A DNA stretch of 64,000 nucleotides. Source: Microcoleus sp. AS-A8. Lineage in GTDB: Bacteria; Cyanobacteriota; Cyanobacteriia; Cyanobacteriales; Coleofasciculaceae. This document shows positions 10,679-18,985 of this stretch, one piece after another. The stretch is taken from assembly GCA_039962225.1 (NCBI GenBank), contig JAMPKV010000010.1, forward strand, positions 1-64,000, given 5' to 3'. A program made the translations under genes and the position numbers. Each line of letters opens with the position of its first letter. The stretch's first letter is position 1. Under the pieces are notes generated by a model. It was given only the letters and a program-made list of their open reading frames with translations, was not told the DNA's origin and did no database searches.

Positions 10679-13600
10679 CTATACATTCAAACGTCGTTCA
10701 AGAGCGTTTGAAAAGCCTTCGCTCATTTCTATCATCGTAACGTCGATTATCGGCTGATTGTCATCAATTAACAGTTTTAATCCAGCATTTTGGCTCTTGA
10801 CAAAACCTAGATTTTGCCAATGTTGAGTCTGCTCGCCCCATTGATCCTTCAGGTAAGATTCCCACATAGCTTGGTGTTCAGGCTTGACCGATACGAGAAT
10901 GCGACTGGCACTCTCACCAAAAAGTACCTCATCCCAACGCCTCTCTACATCCGTTAGCCCCAAGTTAATTTGGGCACCCAATTGACCAGCAATACAAGAT
11001 TCAGCGAGGGCAACCGCAATTCCGCCTTCCGCACAATCATGGGCAGAACGCACCCAGCCTTGACGAATCCCTTCCCGTGTTGCAGCTTGGACGCGCCGTT
11101 CCAAATCAAAATCCACGACAGGCGGTTTACCCGCAACAACGCCATGAATACTGGCGAGGTATTCAGAACCCCCTAAACCGAGGTAAGGCGTAGAATCAGT
11201 CAGTGGCAATCCCAAAAGATAAATTAAATCTCCTTCAGCTTGCCAACCTTGAGTGCAAATGCGAGTCATATCAGGAATCAACCCCACCATCCCAATCACT
11301 GGCGTTGGGTAGATAGGCTGAGGTGTGCCAGTGGCATCCAATGTTTCGTTATAAAGAGAGACATTACCCCCAGTCACAGGCGTTTCCATGATTCGACAAG
11401 CCTCTGCAATCCCCTGACATGCCGACGCCAACTGCCAATATCCGATCGGCTTTTCGGGACTGCCAAAATTCAGGTTATCGGTAACCGCTAAGGGTTCCGC
11501 ACCCACACAGCTAAGGTTCCGCGCCGCTTCGGCAACAACGGCTTTAGCCCCTTCATAGGGGTCAAGATAGACATAACGAGAATTGCAATCTACCGTTGCT
11601 GCAACGGCTGATTTTGGATTGAGAATGCCTTCTTCCACTGGACGCAACCTGACAACAGCCGCATCAGCACCACCGGGCAACATCACAGTATTGTTTTGCA
11701 CTTGATGGTCGTACTGGCGATAAACCCAGCGTTTAGAAGCAATCGTGGGAGTATCCAGAAGTTGCAGGAGGAGATCACTCCAAGTTTTACGGTTCCCTTG
11801 GATGTCAATTCCCTCAGTGGTGCAAGCAGGGAGAGAGTTGGCTGTCCACTCCCAAGCTTGACGGGCATATTCCGGCGGTTCAGCTAAAAGTTCTCGGTGA
11901 TAAATGGGCGTATTATCGGCTAATGCTGTGGCTGGGATTTCCGCTGCCACTCCGCCTTGGAACAAAATTCGCACAATTGGCTCTTCAATAACCGTACCTG
12001 CTACTACAGCCTGTAGCCCCCAGCGATGGAAAATATCAATTAACTCTTGTTCCCGTCCTTTGTGAGCAACAAATAACATCCGTTCCTGGGATTCGGAAAG
12101 GAGATATTCATAGGGAACCATACCGCTTTCCCGCACTGGAATCAGGTCTAAATCCAGCTCAATTCCTACACCGCCTTTTGCTGCCATCTCTGAGGTAGAA
12201 CAGGTAATTCCAGCTGCACCCATATCTTGGGCGGCAACGACAGCCCCGGTTTTAAAGGCTTCTAGACACGCTTCAATTAAAGATTTTTCCAGAAATGGGT
12301 CACCCACTTGCACCGCAGGGCGGTCATCCATGGATTGTTCGCTGAGTTCCGCACTGGCAAAACTCGCCCCACCCATGCCATCTCTACCCGTGGTAGAACC
12401 GACGTATAAGACTGGATTACCGATACCCGCCGCCCCGGATTTGACGATTTCTGGGGTTTCCATCAATCCCAGTGCCATGACATTCACGAGGGGATTATCG
12501 CTATAAGCGGGGTCAAAGTAGACTTCGCCGCCGACGGTGGGAACCCCGACGCAATTATGCGTCACGATGCCAGAAGTGGTGGCAAAAAGATGGGTATTGT
12601 CTACCTCAACATCGTAGACATCGCATTCATCAACACTATTGACTGCTAAACTTTTAATCTTTACAAAGGCTATTTCATTGGAAACTTGATAACGGGGAAA
12701 TGAATGTTGTGTCCCGTTATAGCGTTCTAAGGCTGTCGCTAACTGCTCATTGCGTTCTTCGCCAAACACATTGGCTAATGCTGTTAATCCACTAACATTG
12801 CCAACTTCCAAACTCCATAATGGCTTACGCACATGCATACGACCTTGGATTTGTCCCTCACAGGCTGGTCGCTGATAGATATAAGGGATTGCTCCCTGAC
12901 TCTGAAGCAGTATCACAGCTTGCTCAAATAGTTTGCGGCTTGTTGTTCCAAATGCGATTTTGGCATGATTACCATGAGTTTTCGTGGTTAACGAGCCATC
13001 ACCTCGCAACAAACCTTTAAGGGCTTCACGCTGTAAATAGCGAGGCCATTGGAACACAAAAGCGGGAAAAGCTTTATCGATTGCTCCGGTACCGCACTTC
13101 CAAACCTCTTTCAAAAGGTAGCCAAACAGCCATGAAGTTGCATAAACAGCAATAGTGGAATCACGTTTTTCGATGCAGGGTCGCAGCCCAAGATTTTTCA
13201 GTCCAAATACCACGTCATTGACGTACTCGTCCTCATGAAGAGCAAACGTGAAAATGATTTTATAGGTATTGCTATTTTGAGAAACACATCCTTCGGAGAG
13301 ATAGTAACCAAGTAAGCGTGCAAATACCTCATCGGGCTGGATAACGGCGAACATGTGGTTGGCTTTGCCACGTCGGAAGAGACAGATATCGCTTCGCGAC
13401 ACATTCAGCAATGGCTCTAGGCTGAGAAAATGTGAGAGAGGTAATGTCCCTTTTTTCAGGTATCTGTGGCGATTACAGGCAGAAGGTTCGAGTTTCTGTA
13501 AAGCTGCGCGTAGTTCCTCTGTAGGTTCCCAGCTTGGTGGTAGGTTTACATAAACATTTTTATCGCCCTTATGCTGTTCACCTAGAGTAGTCAGCAAATC

Positions 13601-14485
13601 CAGAGATGGAGCATCACTCTGTTGTTGCTCTACCTGCGGGTAGGGCATATTGATGAGTATGGGAATCTGGTCGCCAACTAGAAGGGATTGCGATTCGCGG
13701 GTGCGCCATTCCCCATCTTCCAGGAGCAACATGGGATGGTCGGGTGTGACGGTGAGAGTTCGACCAAGGGCTGTACGAATGGTTATCAGGGTTGTGGCGC
13801 GTCGTTTGAACAGACGGCGCACAGGTTGCCAACAACTTTGCTGTGTGTCGGCATCCAAGGAAAGTGTTTCAACTGAGGCAGAAGGCTCTAATTCGACTGT
13901 AGTCTGAGTTGAGGGCAAACGCGATTCAACAAAATTGCCGATTGTATCGAAATGTACGCCTTTGTCGTCCCGCCAGATAAAGGTTTCACTGGGGATTAAG
14001 CAGTTGCCATAGTGGGAGATTCCTTCTACGACACCACTGAATAGCCTTCGCGTCCTGGCATCGTCCAGGGAACCGAAGCGCAGGGAGTTGAGTACGGCAA
14101 TGGGACGCGCCCCCATGGTAAAAATATCCCGTAGGATGCCGCCTACTCCCGTTGCTGCACCTTGAAAGGGTTCAACGGCGGAGGGGTGATTGTGGGATTC
14201 GATTTTAAACGCCAGTCTTAACCCGTCTCCTAAGTCTACGACTCCGGCGTTTTCTCCGGGGCCGACTAAAATGCGATCGCCTTCTGTGGGAAACTGCTTG
14301 AGTAAGGGACGCGAGTTCTTGTAACAGCAATGCTCTGACCACATCACGCCAAACATTCCCAGTTCAGCCTTGTTGGGATGACGCCCTAACCGCTGGACGA
14401 TGTCTTGGTATTCTTCAGGCTTCAAGCCTTCAGCGGCAATTTCTTCGGGAGAGAAGGGAGCAGAGGAGATGCTGGACATGAACAC
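10679..14485 (-). CDS. purL: Phosphoribosylformylglycinamidine synthase II (PurL) with intein
   Basis: The 1268-residue precursor is a 785-residue PurL interrupted by a 483-residue intein. PurL makes FGAM from FGAR, ATP and glutamine-derived ammonia, working with PurQ and PurS. Host motifs include [13 protein letters not shown] (about 48-60), [20 protein letters not shown] (about 94-113) and, after splicing, SHYGN joined to [10 protein letters not shown]. Internal AIR-synthase-like repeats include QDMGAAG and a later GGNVSLYNE. The insertion is between Asn161 and the cysteine of the conserved GNCVGVP loop, so activity requires splicing. purF lies downstream. Confidence 0.97.
12554..14002 (-). 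other. Intein with LAGLIDADG-type homing endonuclease, inside PurL
   Basis: Residues 162-644 of the precursor form the intein. Block A is [10 protein letters not shown] with nucleophile Cys1; block B is [10 protein letters not shown] with its His. The endonuclease shows two DOD-type motifs, [10 protein letters not shown] and LLRGDGSL, about 130 residues apart. Block F is [16 protein letters not shown] and block G is VTHN followed by extein Cys. All splicing residues are present, so it should be active. An intact endonuclease region suggests recent mobility. Confidence 0.95.
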
Positions 14486-14625: not shown

Positions 14626-15699
14626 TCACATTCCCCAGCGCAAGGCAGGGGTTTTGACGGGTGCATCCCAAAGTTTAATCATCTCCTCATCCATCTTCAG
14701 CAGGGTGATGGAGCATCCTTGCATTTCCAGGGAAGTGATGTAAGGGCCGATTAAATTTCGCACAATCTGAAGGTTATGCTTTTGGCAGACTTCTGCTAAT
14801 TTGCGATAAACGATGTACAACTCAGACAGGGGAGTGCCACCCATACTGTTGACAAAGGCGAGGACGGAATCACCGCTTTGCAAGGGTGAGTCAGTTAGTT
14901 CAACCTCTATCCATTGTGATTTGTCCGCATCCCATTCACGCACGGTGCGGGAGTAGTTCATGTCTTCGATGATAGAAACTGCCAGCATCTCGGTGATTTC
15001 ATCGACTGACTTGAGAGGCATTCGTTGGCGTCCCGGTTCCCCGTGAATACCGATACCCGCTTCCATTTCATCTTCCCCCAGTTCAAAAGTGGGGCTACCT
15101 TTGGCAGGTACGGTGCAGGAAGTGAGTGCTATCCCCATGCTGCGTCCGTTGAGGTTAACCTTATGGCAAAGGTTGGTAAGTTGCTTCAAGTCATATCCCT
15201 GTTCAGCCGCAGCACCACAGATTTTTTCAGCCAGGACGGTTGTGCCAACACCTCGACGCCCTTGGGTGTAGAGGCTATCTTTAACCGCGATATCATCATC
15301 AATCAGAATATTGGATATTTCGATGCCTTCGGAGTGAGCTAGTTCGGCTGCCATCTCGAAGTTCATCACGTCGCCACTATAGTTTTTAACGATATTGAGG
15401 ACACCAGCATTCCCATTAACCATCTTGGCAGCTTCTAGCATTTGGTCAGGAGTGGGAGAGGTGAAGACTTCACCGGGACAGGCAGCATCTAACATGCCGA
15501 AGCCAACAAAACCGCCGTGCATGGGTTCGTGTCCACTACCGCCACCGGAGATAAGGGCGACTTTGTTTTGAATGGGTGCGTCGGCGCGATAGATGAAGTG
15601 AGGGTCAAGGTGGACTTTGATTAGGTTAGAATGGGCGGCTGCCATGCCTTGTAGGCTTTCGCGTACTACATCGTCGGGGTTGTTGATGAGTTTTTTCAT
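14626..15699 (-). CDS. dhaK: Dihydroxyacetone kinase subunit DhaK
   Basis: The 357-residue product has the glycine loop GGGSGHEP (52-59) and the substrate-binding histidine in GIGIHGEPG (H219), which forms a hemiaminal with dihydroxyacetone. [14 protein letters not shown] (about 128-141) is also typical. DhaK binds the substrate, while the phosphate comes from the DhaL subunit with ATP or a PTS-type donor. No dhaL or dhaM gene lies on either side: purL is downstream and a restriction-modification gene upstream. DhaL would therefore have to come from elsewhere in the genome. Confidence 0.93.
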
Positions 15700-15740: not shown

Positions 15741-17783
15741 TCAGTATGGCCCCAAGAACCGCTCTCCATTAAAGTGGATCATGTGAGTTGGAGACTGGGC
15801 TATCCAAACTTCGGTCTCCCAAGAGATGTTGGTCAAATATTTCGCCAGGTCGATTCGATTAAGGAAGGCGCTGACAAATACAAGACCCGCTGTTGAATCC
15901 TTGAATACTATCTCAAGCTCATTCCGGCGTTTTGGGTCTACGGAGCCATGACTGGTAACAGCCTCAATCAGCACGAGCCAATTCTTCTCAACATAGTGAA
16001 CCACAACGTCGGGCATCTTTCCGTGGGTATCGACAGCAACACCTAATGCCTCAAGTGATTCTCTGTCAAAGTAGCCCCACTTATTAGCTGCATCGCCTAC
16101 ATAAATTAGCTTTCCACCTGGAGTGAAACGAGGGCAAAACTCGTTGATAATCTGCTCAATCAGTATGTTCTGCCCACCTGGTGATAATGAGATGGTCTTA
16201 CCTGAAGCTACCGTTACAGGAATCCATGCCATCTCCCGTTCTAAGGCGTACCGCCCTTGTAGTGTCTCGACAGACGTTAGGTAGATTTTTAGTTTCTCAG
16301 TCCAGGTATCTGTCTCGTAAGCACGGAGTAACTCCAGCGTGTTTTCCTCGACTTGATAAACAGTTTTGGGGCTGTTCGGCGGTCTTGAAGGCTTGTCCGG
16401 GTTGGCGACAAGAATACCAGCTTCTAAGAACTGATGAACAGTCTGACGACGGATAGTTTCGCGAGTGTTGGGTGCGTACTGTTTCCCGTAGTACTTAGCG
16501 ATGAATTCCATGATGGGAGTGATTCCCCGTAAAGGGTTACTTGCATCAGACCAAGGGTTATCCGGTTTTAGATGAAGTAGAGCCAGCAACGTCAGGGCAG
16601 ACCTCTCATTTTGCTGTGCAGGTGGTAGACCTAGATCTCTGAGAACAGCCTTGGCTTCCTCAGTTCTCCTAGTCATTTTAAGAGCGAGAGAATTGGTGTT
16701 GTCAGGCATGTAGGATGAATCCTTTTTGAAGAATTCAAGAGATAGTTGTATGGGTTGACTTAATAGATAAGGTTCTTTAAGTGATATCGACTCATGAGCT
16801 TGTAAACATGCTTTGACAGAACAAGCTACAGCATGAGCCAAGATGGGAGGAACTGCATTGCCAATCTGGTTATACTGGCTGTCTTCAGAACCCTGGAATT
16901 CAAACCAATCGGGAAAACTCTGTAAACGAGCACCTTCACGAACCGTAAGCCTACGCCTGCGTCCATCGGGCAAACGAATCCGCAGCATATCGCCAGTAGG
17001 AGCACTCAGGTTGCGGCAAGTCACGGTTCTAGAGGGAGCATCAAGGTGCAAATCTCTGGGTCTGATACATTTGGAGGCTATCTCATATTTCTTGACATAT
17101 TCATCCATGCTGGAAGTGAGAAACTTTGAGTTAGGAGGTGCAACAAATGCGAATTCTCCGAGTGCTTCACCAGCGGTGTAAGGTGAGTTTAAATGGGTTT
17201 TTTCTGGCCATTGCCAGCCCCCTTGATGAGCAACGCAAAACAGACGCTCTCTACGCTGAGGTACGCCATAATGGGCAGCGTTAAGAATATTCCACTCAAC
17301 GATATAGCCTAGTTCTTTTAGAGCTATAACAATCTCTTCAAAGTAGGCTTTGTTGCGAAATAGCATTCCGCGCACATTCTCAAATAAGGCTATTTTTGGA
17401 TGATAGCGGTCAATGGCGTCGAGAAAAATTGGGAACCCATCGCGACTATCTTGGAGTCCCAACTGGTGTCCATTGACGCTAAAAGGCTGACATGGGGGGC
17501 CTCCAACGATCACATCTGCTTCAGCCATCAAATTGGGGTTGCGTGTCAAAGTTAACTGATAACATGTACCCTGCAAGTTTTGCTGATAAGTAGCGCAGGC
17601 ATCCTCTAGCATTTCATAACCAACTGTTTTAAAGCCAGCTACTTCAAAACCCAGCGCTAGCCCTCCACAACCGGCAAACAGATCGATGACTAAAGGTTCC
17701 GTTGGCTCTCTTAGAGGGAGTTGGAGTTCTTGTTCCAAAAAATCAAAGTAGAGAGGTCTGTGGTTGAAGATAGCCGTTTTCAT
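15741..17783 (-). CDS. Fused cytosine-5 DNA methyltransferase and PstI/BsuBI-type restriction endonuclease
   Basis: Residues 1-340 are a C5-cytosine methyltransferase: motif I FAGCGG (36-41), motif IV PPCQPFS with catalytic Cys98, ENVRG (135-139), QRRERLF (176-182) and GNAVPP (308-313). Residues 359-680 match BsuBI/PstI endonucleases: [12 protein letters not shown] (about 562-573), MPDVVV (590-595), LIEAVTSHG (605-613), ETEVWIAQ and [10 protein letters not shown] at the end. This half begins with Met359, and 322 residues equals a free-standing enzyme of the family. PstI relatives are normally paired with adenine methyltransferases. Recognition sequence is unknown. The AAAAGGA about 14 nt before codon 359 could allow separate nuclease synthesis. 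Confidence 0.92.
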
Positions 17784-17940: not shown

Positions 17941-18309
17941 TTACATTGACTCGGACTCAATCCACACTGTAACCGCAGCAACAGCAATCAGCATCTCGTC
18001 ATTTTTATCATTAAGGGAGGGAATGGCTCGACCCTGAACCACCATCCCACCAAACTCAACCGTGAGCGTTTTGCGCCCAAAAGGGAGCACAGCCAATACC
18101 TCGGCTTCCCGTACTTGTTCCGGATAAGGGACGGCTATTTGGACTTCAACAATCATTTGATCGGGATCGCTTAAACCCGCAACTTCCCAAACACCGGGCA
18201 AGGCATTGTGCGCGATCGCATTGCGTACAGCCCTTGCAGCAGCGACAGTCGCTTCCTGTCCGTGCTGATCGACTCCCATACCCATTTCGATAATCAAGCG
18301 TTTACGCAC
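17941..18309 (-). CDS. Lin0512 family protein
   Basis: The product matches the small Lin0512 family: RLIIEMGMGVDQHGQ at the N-terminus, then AAARAVRNAIAHNALPG, and a C-terminal hydrophobic AVAAVTVWI strand. The family occurs in bacteria and cyanobacteria and has no firmly established activity. I chose the GTG at 18309 (M-RKRLIIEMG) because GAGGGG lies just upstream and family members start there. A GTG at 18345 would add 12 residues. The gene stands alone, divergent from the four-helix protein. Confidence 0.7.
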   Translation of the reverse strand: MRKRLIIEMGMGVDQHGQEATVAAARAVRNAIAHNALPGVWEVAGLSDPDQMIVEVQIAVPYPEQVREAEVLAVLPFGRKTLTVEFGGMVVQGRAIPSLNDKNDEMLIAVAAVTVWIESESM

Positions 18310-18622
18310 CACAACCCCCTCTTTTGTTTTCACTTTCTCTTCCACAGGTTAATACAACAGAGCGCTGCCTGTTCATTTCAGTCGCTAGCTAGGTGACTCG
18401 ACCCCCAGCACGATTGTGTCCCAATTCTCGGATAATTTGATCGGCGTAGTTGAAAAAATCGGGAAAGCTGCTCATGCTAATTTCTTCCCCCTGTCAGGGA
18501 TTATGTCATTTTGGATTTTGGATTTTAGATTTCGGATTTTGCAAGCATTGCCAATAGGTAGTTTCAGAACTTCAAACAGAACAACTCTCAACCTACTTGA
18601 TATCCGTTGTTAGTAGAAGGAC

Positions 18623-18985
18623 ATGGCGAAATCAAATTTTGAAAACTTGCAAATTTACAAACTGTCGGAGAGCATCGCTGACGAAATTTGGAATATCGTC
18701 GGAAATTGGGAGCAATTCGCTAAAGATACCATCGGCAAGCAGATAGTGCGTTCTGTAGATAGCATTGGTGCCAATATCGCACAAGGTACTGATCGACATA
18801 ATTTTTCAGAGCATCAACATTACCTTAGGCTCGCCCTCAGCTCTTTGAATGAAACAAGATACTGGTTGCGACGAGCTTACACTCGACATCTCTTAACACC
18901 AAAACAAATCCATAAACTCAAACCCATCGTTGATGAACTCTCCCTTAAACTAAACGCATACCTAAAATCCATAAGATCTGATTGA
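18623..18985 (+). CDS. Four-helix bundle protein (23S rRNA intervening-sequence family)
   Basis: The 120-residue product shows the family signature: an N-terminal FENLQIYKLSESIADEIW, the central QIVRSVDSIGANIAQGTDR, and SSLNETRYWLRRA. Members form a pentamer of four-helix bundles; some sit in rRNA intervening sequences, but most, like this one, are free-standing and of unknown role. A GAAGGA ribosome-binding site directly precedes the ATG. In 18346-18622 there is only AT-rich DNA with repeated TTTTGGATTTT-like words. Confidence 0.85.
   Translation: MAKSNFENLQIYKLSESIADEIWNIVGNWEQFAKDTIGKQIVRSVDSIGANIAQGTDRHNFSEHQHYLRLALSSLNETRYWLRRAYTRHLLTPKQIHKLKPIVDELSLKLNAYLKSIRSD

Follow-up and report, generated by a model that had tools for sequence, protein, structure and literature searches.

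Type IIC restriction-modification (RM) systems are defined as those that place restriction and modification in one polypeptide, and the survey that gives this definition, which examined whether fusion of two-gene systems is how one-chain systems arise, reports a two-gene Type II relative of more than 50% similarity for 0.9% of them, calling such fusions rare (PMC4176335). Type IIG systems, as characterized in PMC4081073, comprise a gamma-class methylase with a shared specificity module. A joined pair has also been engineered: the finished Eco29kI fusion, in which the start codon was removed as well, is reported to have retained methylase activity at 80% and nuclease activity at one third, its protection against phage being weaker by about a hundredfold (PMC3039593). 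In the titles and abstract openings of the papers that our searches found (REBASE lay outside their scope), we came across no natural fusion of a C5-cytosine methylase with a PstI-family nuclease, searching the literature for SdaI, or for a C5 fusion involving BsuBI, returned no paper, and a search for AvaIII gave two papers and led no further.

Here we describe such a fusion from the cyanobacterium Microcoleus sp. AS-A8, found in a stretch of 64,000 nucleotides from contig JAMPKV010000010.1 (hereafter the window). At the sequence level it belongs to Type IIC in the broad sense, both domain sets being complete in one chain; it departs from Type IIG in that its methylase is of the C5-cytosine type and not of the gamma (amino) class. 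Relatives have stand-alone enzymes that are homologous to each half, which argues for two putative recognition modules. We consider it likely that the locus encodes a bifunctional Type II RM protein, with CTGCAG as the most likely site, that arose from a methylase-nuclease (M-R) pair by loss of a stop codon.

Domain architecture and genomic context

The preliminary description of this DNA read the open reading frame (ORF) as a single chain in which a C5 methylase with all its motifs is followed by a PstI-family nuclease, and this reading is upheld by the uninterrupted 680 codons and by domain matches (Table 1) that all lie far above the Pfam cut-off, which is 27 bits for both PF17728 and PF06616. 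The methylase half also matches the TIGR00675 (dcm) model at 190 bits (cut-off, 100.65), and QIGNAVPP and other stretches that we take to be C5-methylase motifs are readable in its translation. For the nuclease half, the closest solved structure is that of SdaI (PDB 2ixs), which is matched over residues 7-322 of 322 (E 1e-74). The invariant nuclease columns of an alignment of 16 sequences, the window protein included, are kept in the latter; among them are P591-D592 and E607, which align to the PD and EAV of SdaI and are presumably the catalytic residues. An AlphaFold model made with 27 related sequences (mean pLDDT, 83.4; pTM, 0.53) has two folded halves and a low-confidence join at residues 334-363; this pTM and such a join are what is expected of two domains without fixed packing. 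By the NG86 method, dN and dS of the methylase are 0.025 and 0.124 against the sister species (G001) and 0.108 and 1.00 against the nearest relative with separate genes (G004), and those of the first 102 nuclease codons are 0.130 and 0.80 against G004 (dN/dS of about 0.16). Both halves look constrained, as far as a comparison with G004 that spans time before the fusion can tell.

Table 1. Features of the fused restriction-modification locus (window coordinates)
Feature	Coordinates	Strand	Basis
Single-chain RM ORF, 680 aa	15741..17783	minus	ATG start, no internal stop
C5-cytosine DNA methyltransferase domain, residues 32-323	16815..17690	minus	Pfam PF00145 (DNA_methylase), E 1.4e-63, 216 bits
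Stretch of about 15 nt absent from split relative G004; holds the Shine-Dalgarno-like AAAAAGGA (16720-16727)	16717..16731	minus	Junction alignment; gap placeable a few nt to either side
Codon 358, TAC (Tyr); methylase stop TAA in G004	16710..16712	minus	Junction alignment
Codon 359, ATG; homologue of the codon at which the unfused nuclease starts	16707..16709	minus	Junction alignment
Linker, residues 334-363, pLDDT under 50	16695..16784	minus	AlphaFold model
BsuBI/PstI N-terminal helix-turn-helix domain, residues 373-508	16260..16667	minus	Pfam PF17728 (BsuBI_PstI_RE_N), E 1.7e-50, 171 bits
BsuBI/PstI nuclease domain, residues 521-674, with invariant P591-D592 and E607	15762..16223	minus	Pfam PF06616 (BsuBI_PstI_RE), E 3e-62, 209 bits

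The ORF is flanked by a Dak1-domain gene (14626-15699) and a Lin0512-family gene (17941-18345). Near the system stands a free-standing gene for a 23S rRNA intervening-sequence family protein (window 18623-18985, plus strand), for which G001 also has matching DNA. A PurL-like gene (window 10679-14485, minus strand) is interrupted between HYGN and CVGVPTVGG by an intein that has LAGLIDADG and splicing domains and is about 483 residues long; in G001 this site is empty. A literature search on this intein turned up one paper, on green-algal chloroplast genomes. The genome as a whole holds nine C5-methylase matches, one of which (G000:C11:70791-71771) lies within a 697-residue open frame that is long enough for a second fused protein.

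The joint between the two halves

The nearest split relative, G004, whose contig is identical to a sequence of Coleofasciculus sp. S288, has a methylase 82% identical to that of the window. There, the methylase stop is followed directly, and in the same frame, by the nuclease start (TTT TAA ATG CCT GAA AAC), where the window has TCC TAC ATG CCT GAC AAC. Since the ATG of codon 359 is homologous to the start of the unfused nuclease, Met359 is the ancestral nuclease start, in keeping with the earlier proposal that a full-length nuclease begins at this residue. Other split relatives of the same clade have overlapping genes, by 1 nt (L050), 11 nt (L012, L013, and L067), or 17-26 nt (L052). As the unfused state is the commoner one (58 versus 10 in the best 80 of 587 methylase loci), loss of the stop codon, TAA to TAC, is the simplest account. 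This loss, together with the remodelling of about 15 nt, would make the fusion; TACATG would likewise result if a single base were inserted into an overlapping TAATG. The locus looks like a case of two genes becoming one, with a joint that can be read codon by codon. In the fusions L044 and L072 (one gene), L068, L011, and L091, a Tyr likewise directly precedes the nuclease Met, a pattern spotted post hoc, the background being 33 Tyr before 1,464 internal Met. The junctions of L085, L092, L099, and L119 lack this Tyr, and in L045, L109, L124, and L132 the joint shows no Met that could clearly be taken as the nuclease start.

The fused status of the window hangs on one codon in one assembly, and a single substitution decides between fused and split; were codon 358 a misread stop, the genes would be separate in life, as they are in G004. 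The sister species G001 provides no check on this codon because the region is gone there. However, the junction differs from that of G004 by about 15 nt as well, ten other fusions occur in the best 80 of the 587 loci, some with Tyr at the same place, and the assembly is listed as 100% complete in 54 contigs; we hold a base-call error to be very improbable. An alternative of another kind, compatible with a bifunctional chain, is that a free nuclease is also, or even mainly, made from Met359, so that the doses of methylase and nuclease differ. Such an internal start, raised in the preliminary description, is plausible: a separate nuclease is possible because Met359 is the old start and the AAGGA of AAAAAGGA ends 10 nt before its ATG, and in 464 kb of this genome such a motif, with spacing limits picked with the Met359 site in view, precedes 25 of 1,228 internal ATGs versus 17 of 182 first ATGs. 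Further, an unpublished observation mentioned for Eco29kI is that replacing the stop and leaving the next Met gave the downstream protein and not the fusion (PMC3039593), which shows that a joint of this sort can leak or reinitiate. On the other hand, with these motifs rare even at first ATGs (9%), one motif predicts little, and the ATG of G004, which has no such motif, may use stop-start coupling, which the fusion removes. Cutting might also be delayed by another route, described in a review (PMC12707154), in which monomers methylate first and dimers cut later; the window protein might act as a monomeric methylase and begin to cut only when its concentration allows it to dimerize. We see internal initiation as a serious possibility, its odds, which the Eco29kI observation raised slightly, being somewhat below even, that would modify the account of a bifunctional chain.

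Loss of the nuclease in the sister species

Among the genomes searched, G001 represents the one other species of the genus, and it has the same flanking DNA. Its methylase is 95.6% identical in DNA sequence to that of the window and ends soon after the position of residue 343, and a permissive tblastn search found no nuclease trace (best E, 0.22). Hence, one chromosomal site holds the full chain in one species and an orphan methylase in its sister. In the methylase clade to which both belong (13 of the 57 genomes searched), the nuclease of G003 is truncated, those of G022 and G046 are damaged, and the whole genomes of G001, G014, G017, and G027 have no PF06616 match.

Pairing and lineage of the nuclease

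The preliminary description also held that PstI-family enzymes are usually paired with adenine methylases and that a cytosine partner is unusual. We scanned one genome per species with the methylase half and analyzed the best 80 of 587 relatives, which include Bacteroidota, Planctomycetota, Verrucomicrobiota, Acidobacteriota, Bacillota, Pseudomonadota, and a Methanoculleus archaeon. In 58 of these 80 loci a PstI-family ORF lies on a separate frame (at least 300 aa in 45 and shorter, broken, or cut in 13), another 10 are C5-PstI fusions, and 12 show none (two of them, L094 and L103, end at a contig edge). With 58 separate and 10 fused, near relatives of this methylase as a rule have a PstI-family partner, and the claim that a cytosine partner is unusual must be given up. 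The association with adenine methylases stands for one nuclease lineage, class I, which has an Eco57I/N6-type partner in all three long proteins scanned and, by the annotation of the neighbouring gene, in all three plasmid records opened; it fails for class II, whose members are the usual partners of C5 methylases in many bacterial phyla and in one archaeal record. What is unusual, as judged from its tree position, is the lineage of the nuclease itself, which nests among nucleases of adenine-methylase systems and outside the clade that usually serves this methylase. The pairing of a class I nuclease with a C5 methylase is seen in one cyanobacterial clade and in one uncertain long-branch row, and it is fused in the window alone.

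The nuclease tree (85 rows, kept after removal of identical copies and of hits with a span below about 270 residues) places the window in a clade of 30, which includes 18 long proteins along with plasmid nucleases. The 54 other rows, all C5 linked, group in a clade of their own (branch length, 1.18; support, 100/100), and one row falls outside both. That row, L104, from another cyanobacterium, has its class I nuclease beside a C5 methylase outside the window's methylase clade; it has the longest branch of the tree, and its class is uncertain (280 versus 186 bits). In the methylase tree (95 rows, drawn from non-identical hits of at least 350 bits and 290 residues), the window falls within a cyanobacterial clade of 21 (support, 100/99), of which nine rows have a class I nuclease, four have class II, and eight have none, broken or contig-cut nucleases being counted in these labels; the window is the sole class I fusion of this clade. 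A single clade of all C5-linked nucleases, with L104 left out, is rejected with moderate strength (P = 0.011). Fused homologues, which the preliminary description had taken as a sign against its reading if common and well characterized, do recur, in 10 of the best 80 of 587 loci, and a single clade of all nine C5 fusions in the tree is rejected (P = 4e-56), so that this sign is present in part. We read these trees as pointing to an exchange of the nuclease within the methylase clade, which may have run in either direction and have happened once or more. One scenario, to which we give odds somewhat below even, is that the C5 system swapped its own class II nuclease for a class I nuclease from adenine-methylating PstI systems, keeping the CTGCAG target, and was then fused by the loss of a single stop codon. 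If this were true, m6A and m5C in one and the same site would each be able to block a class I nuclease, and nucleases would be tradable between systems of different methylation chemistry.

As to mobile elements, none of the 865 matching plasmid records and none of the 1,359 matching phage records covers 80% of the fused protein in one place, and a scan of viral contigs yielded three remote methylases; these searches lend no support to the idea that the fusion came from a plasmid or phage. Two of the other fusions have reduced architectures. In L045:3126-4646 (G011) the methylase runs directly into the catalytic PstI domain, without a helix-turn-helix domain between them, and the same genome also has a split pair of full-length frames (L048). 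In L011:1495-3057 (G022) the methylase is followed by the PstI helix-turn-helix domain alone; this is perhaps a remnant or a methylase with a second DNA-binding domain.

Target site

Avoidance of the PstI site, which the preliminary description had suggested looking for, is pronounced: CTGCAG occurs 0 times in 464 kb of this genome versus 100 expected from shorter words (z = -10.0, the lowest of the 64 six-base palindromes) and 19 times in the whole genome of 7.75 Mb (2.5 per Mb). In the same 464 kb, ATGCAT, TTGCAA, and GTGCAC stand at 0.87, 0.76, and 0.44 of expectation. GGATCC, GGCGCC, GTCGAC, and TGCGCA are likewise at 0 there, and GGCC is at 0.31 of expectation; with four more palindromes at zero, this genome avoids many palindromes, which suggests that it has met many restriction systems.

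Across related genomes, the median is 5.7 CTGCAG per Mb in 12 carriers versus 47.2 in 37 genomes without (P = 0.0005), the carriers being genomes with a class I or same-clade nuclease and the groups having been set by hand after the counts were known. Carrier G004 is represented by its first 102 nuclease codons, at which the contig ends, and carrier G010 by a fused gene in two contig ends; the 37 include G003, whose truncated nuclease has a Pfam match. Eight of the 57 genomes were left out of this test: G022 and G046 (both damaged), G001, the class II genomes outside the clade (G011, G012, G018, and G021), and G049. The same test gives P values of 0.013 for GGATCC, 0.020 for TGCGCA, 0.12 for GACGTC, and 0.62 for ACGCGT, and a mechanical split by Pfam match (18 with versus 39 without) gives P = 0.011 for CTGCAG. 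Within the methylase clade, the six carriers have 1.0-9.6 CTGCAG per Mb, the two genomes with damaged nucleases 2.5 and 4.3, G001 1.9, and the nuclease losers G003, G014, G017, and G027 47-178. There are exceptions: G051, with a class I nuclease in a long fused frame, has 120 per Mb, and the group of 37 genomes without includes 6 that have fewer than 10. On this depletion, which tracks the system across genomes with these exceptions, CTGCAG is probably the target and is the best-supported site. TGCGCA separates carriers from losers slightly better in sampled stretches; we rejected it as the target, it being frequent in the carriers G004 and G010 (71 and 132 per Mb).

Two further alternatives bear on these counts. 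The system might work as described on another site, such as GGATCC, the depletion of which also follows the system within the methylase clade, or the longer CCTGCAGG, which is cut by SdaI, the nearest solved relative. However, in the 464-kb sample CTGCAG as a whole is at zero, and not CCTGCAGG alone; GGATCC is weakened by G034 and G055, which have the same nuclease lineage and 199 and 161 GGATCC but 21 and 4 CTGCAG per Mb. We regard a different site as unlikely. The nuclease half might also be dead or dying, leaving in effect a solitary methylase on its way to the state of G001, which has the same methylase in the same place and no trace of a nuclease. The losses elsewhere in the clade lend this some weight, and the depletion need not mean an active nuclease because CTGCAG is just as scarce in the methylase-only G001, where the loss must be recent if the genus inherited the fusion or the pair from its ancestor. 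Yet the nuclease half is of full length with its invariant positions kept, the dN/dS of its first 102 codons is low over a span that includes time before the fusion, and the losers other than G001 are far richer in CTGCAG than this genome. A decaying nuclease is in our view quite improbable, and we retain the reading of a bifunctional enzyme.

Proposed function and origin

In that reading, the N-terminal half would place m5C on the target, most likely CTGCAG, in the host chromosome, and the C-terminal half, a predicted PstI/SdaI-like nuclease, would, probably as a dimer, cut that site in unmethylated DNA entering the cell, the two being tethered by a flexible linker of about 30 residues. The origin would be a head-to-tail M-R pair with the methylase stop abutting the nuclease ATG in frame; the stop would then have been lost, TAA to TAC, and the methylase tail slightly remodelled. 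In this cyanobacterial clade the nuclease belongs to a lineage that elsewhere is paired with adenine methylases. Compared with the earlier account, the nuclease lineage and the one-codon joint are the better surprise. The locus offers a before-and-after comparison within one bacterial family, with the joint resolved to the codon, and adds to it the loss of the nuclease in a sister species and a nuclease with relatives that pair with adenine methylases. It makes two questions testable: by what means a fused pair escapes suicide when its two activities are not dosed separately, and whether the methylation chemistry that protects against a nuclease can change while the site stays the same.

Comparison with known systems

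The engineered RM.Eco29kI (Mokrishcheva et al. 2011, PMC3039593) resembles the window protein in combining a type II nuclease and a cytosine methylase in one chain and is reported to derive from a head-to-tail pair with overlapping stop and start codons. It differs in being laboratory made, with the nuclease first, of the GIY-YIG type, and with the site CCGCGG, whereas the window protein is natural, has the methylase first, and belongs to the PstI family. SdaI (PDB 2ixs) is homologous over the nuclease half and differs in being a 323-residue chain of the nuclease alone.

Among natural systems, the cyanobacterial C5-class I pairs (G004, G236, G050, and G023) share the gene order, with methylases 72-82% and nucleases about 70-78% identical (102 nuclease codons for G004), but they consist of two genes that adjoin or overlap by 1 to 26 nt. 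The adenine-type methylase-PstI single chains (frames of 826-895 aa) have a C-terminal nuclease of the same lineage, 46-61% identical, but the front half is of the Eco57I/N6 type, not C5, in the three of three that were scanned; the PADLOC model PDLC03359 (840 positions), the last two fifths of which match the nuclease half, fits these chains. The C5-class II single chains (G005, Pelagicoccus, Desulfocapsa, Spartobacteria, and others) have the same architecture as the window protein, and the methylase of G005 even belongs to the window's clade; they differ in a nuclease of the other lineage (33% identical in G005), and the nine fused rows, as given above, do not share a common origin.
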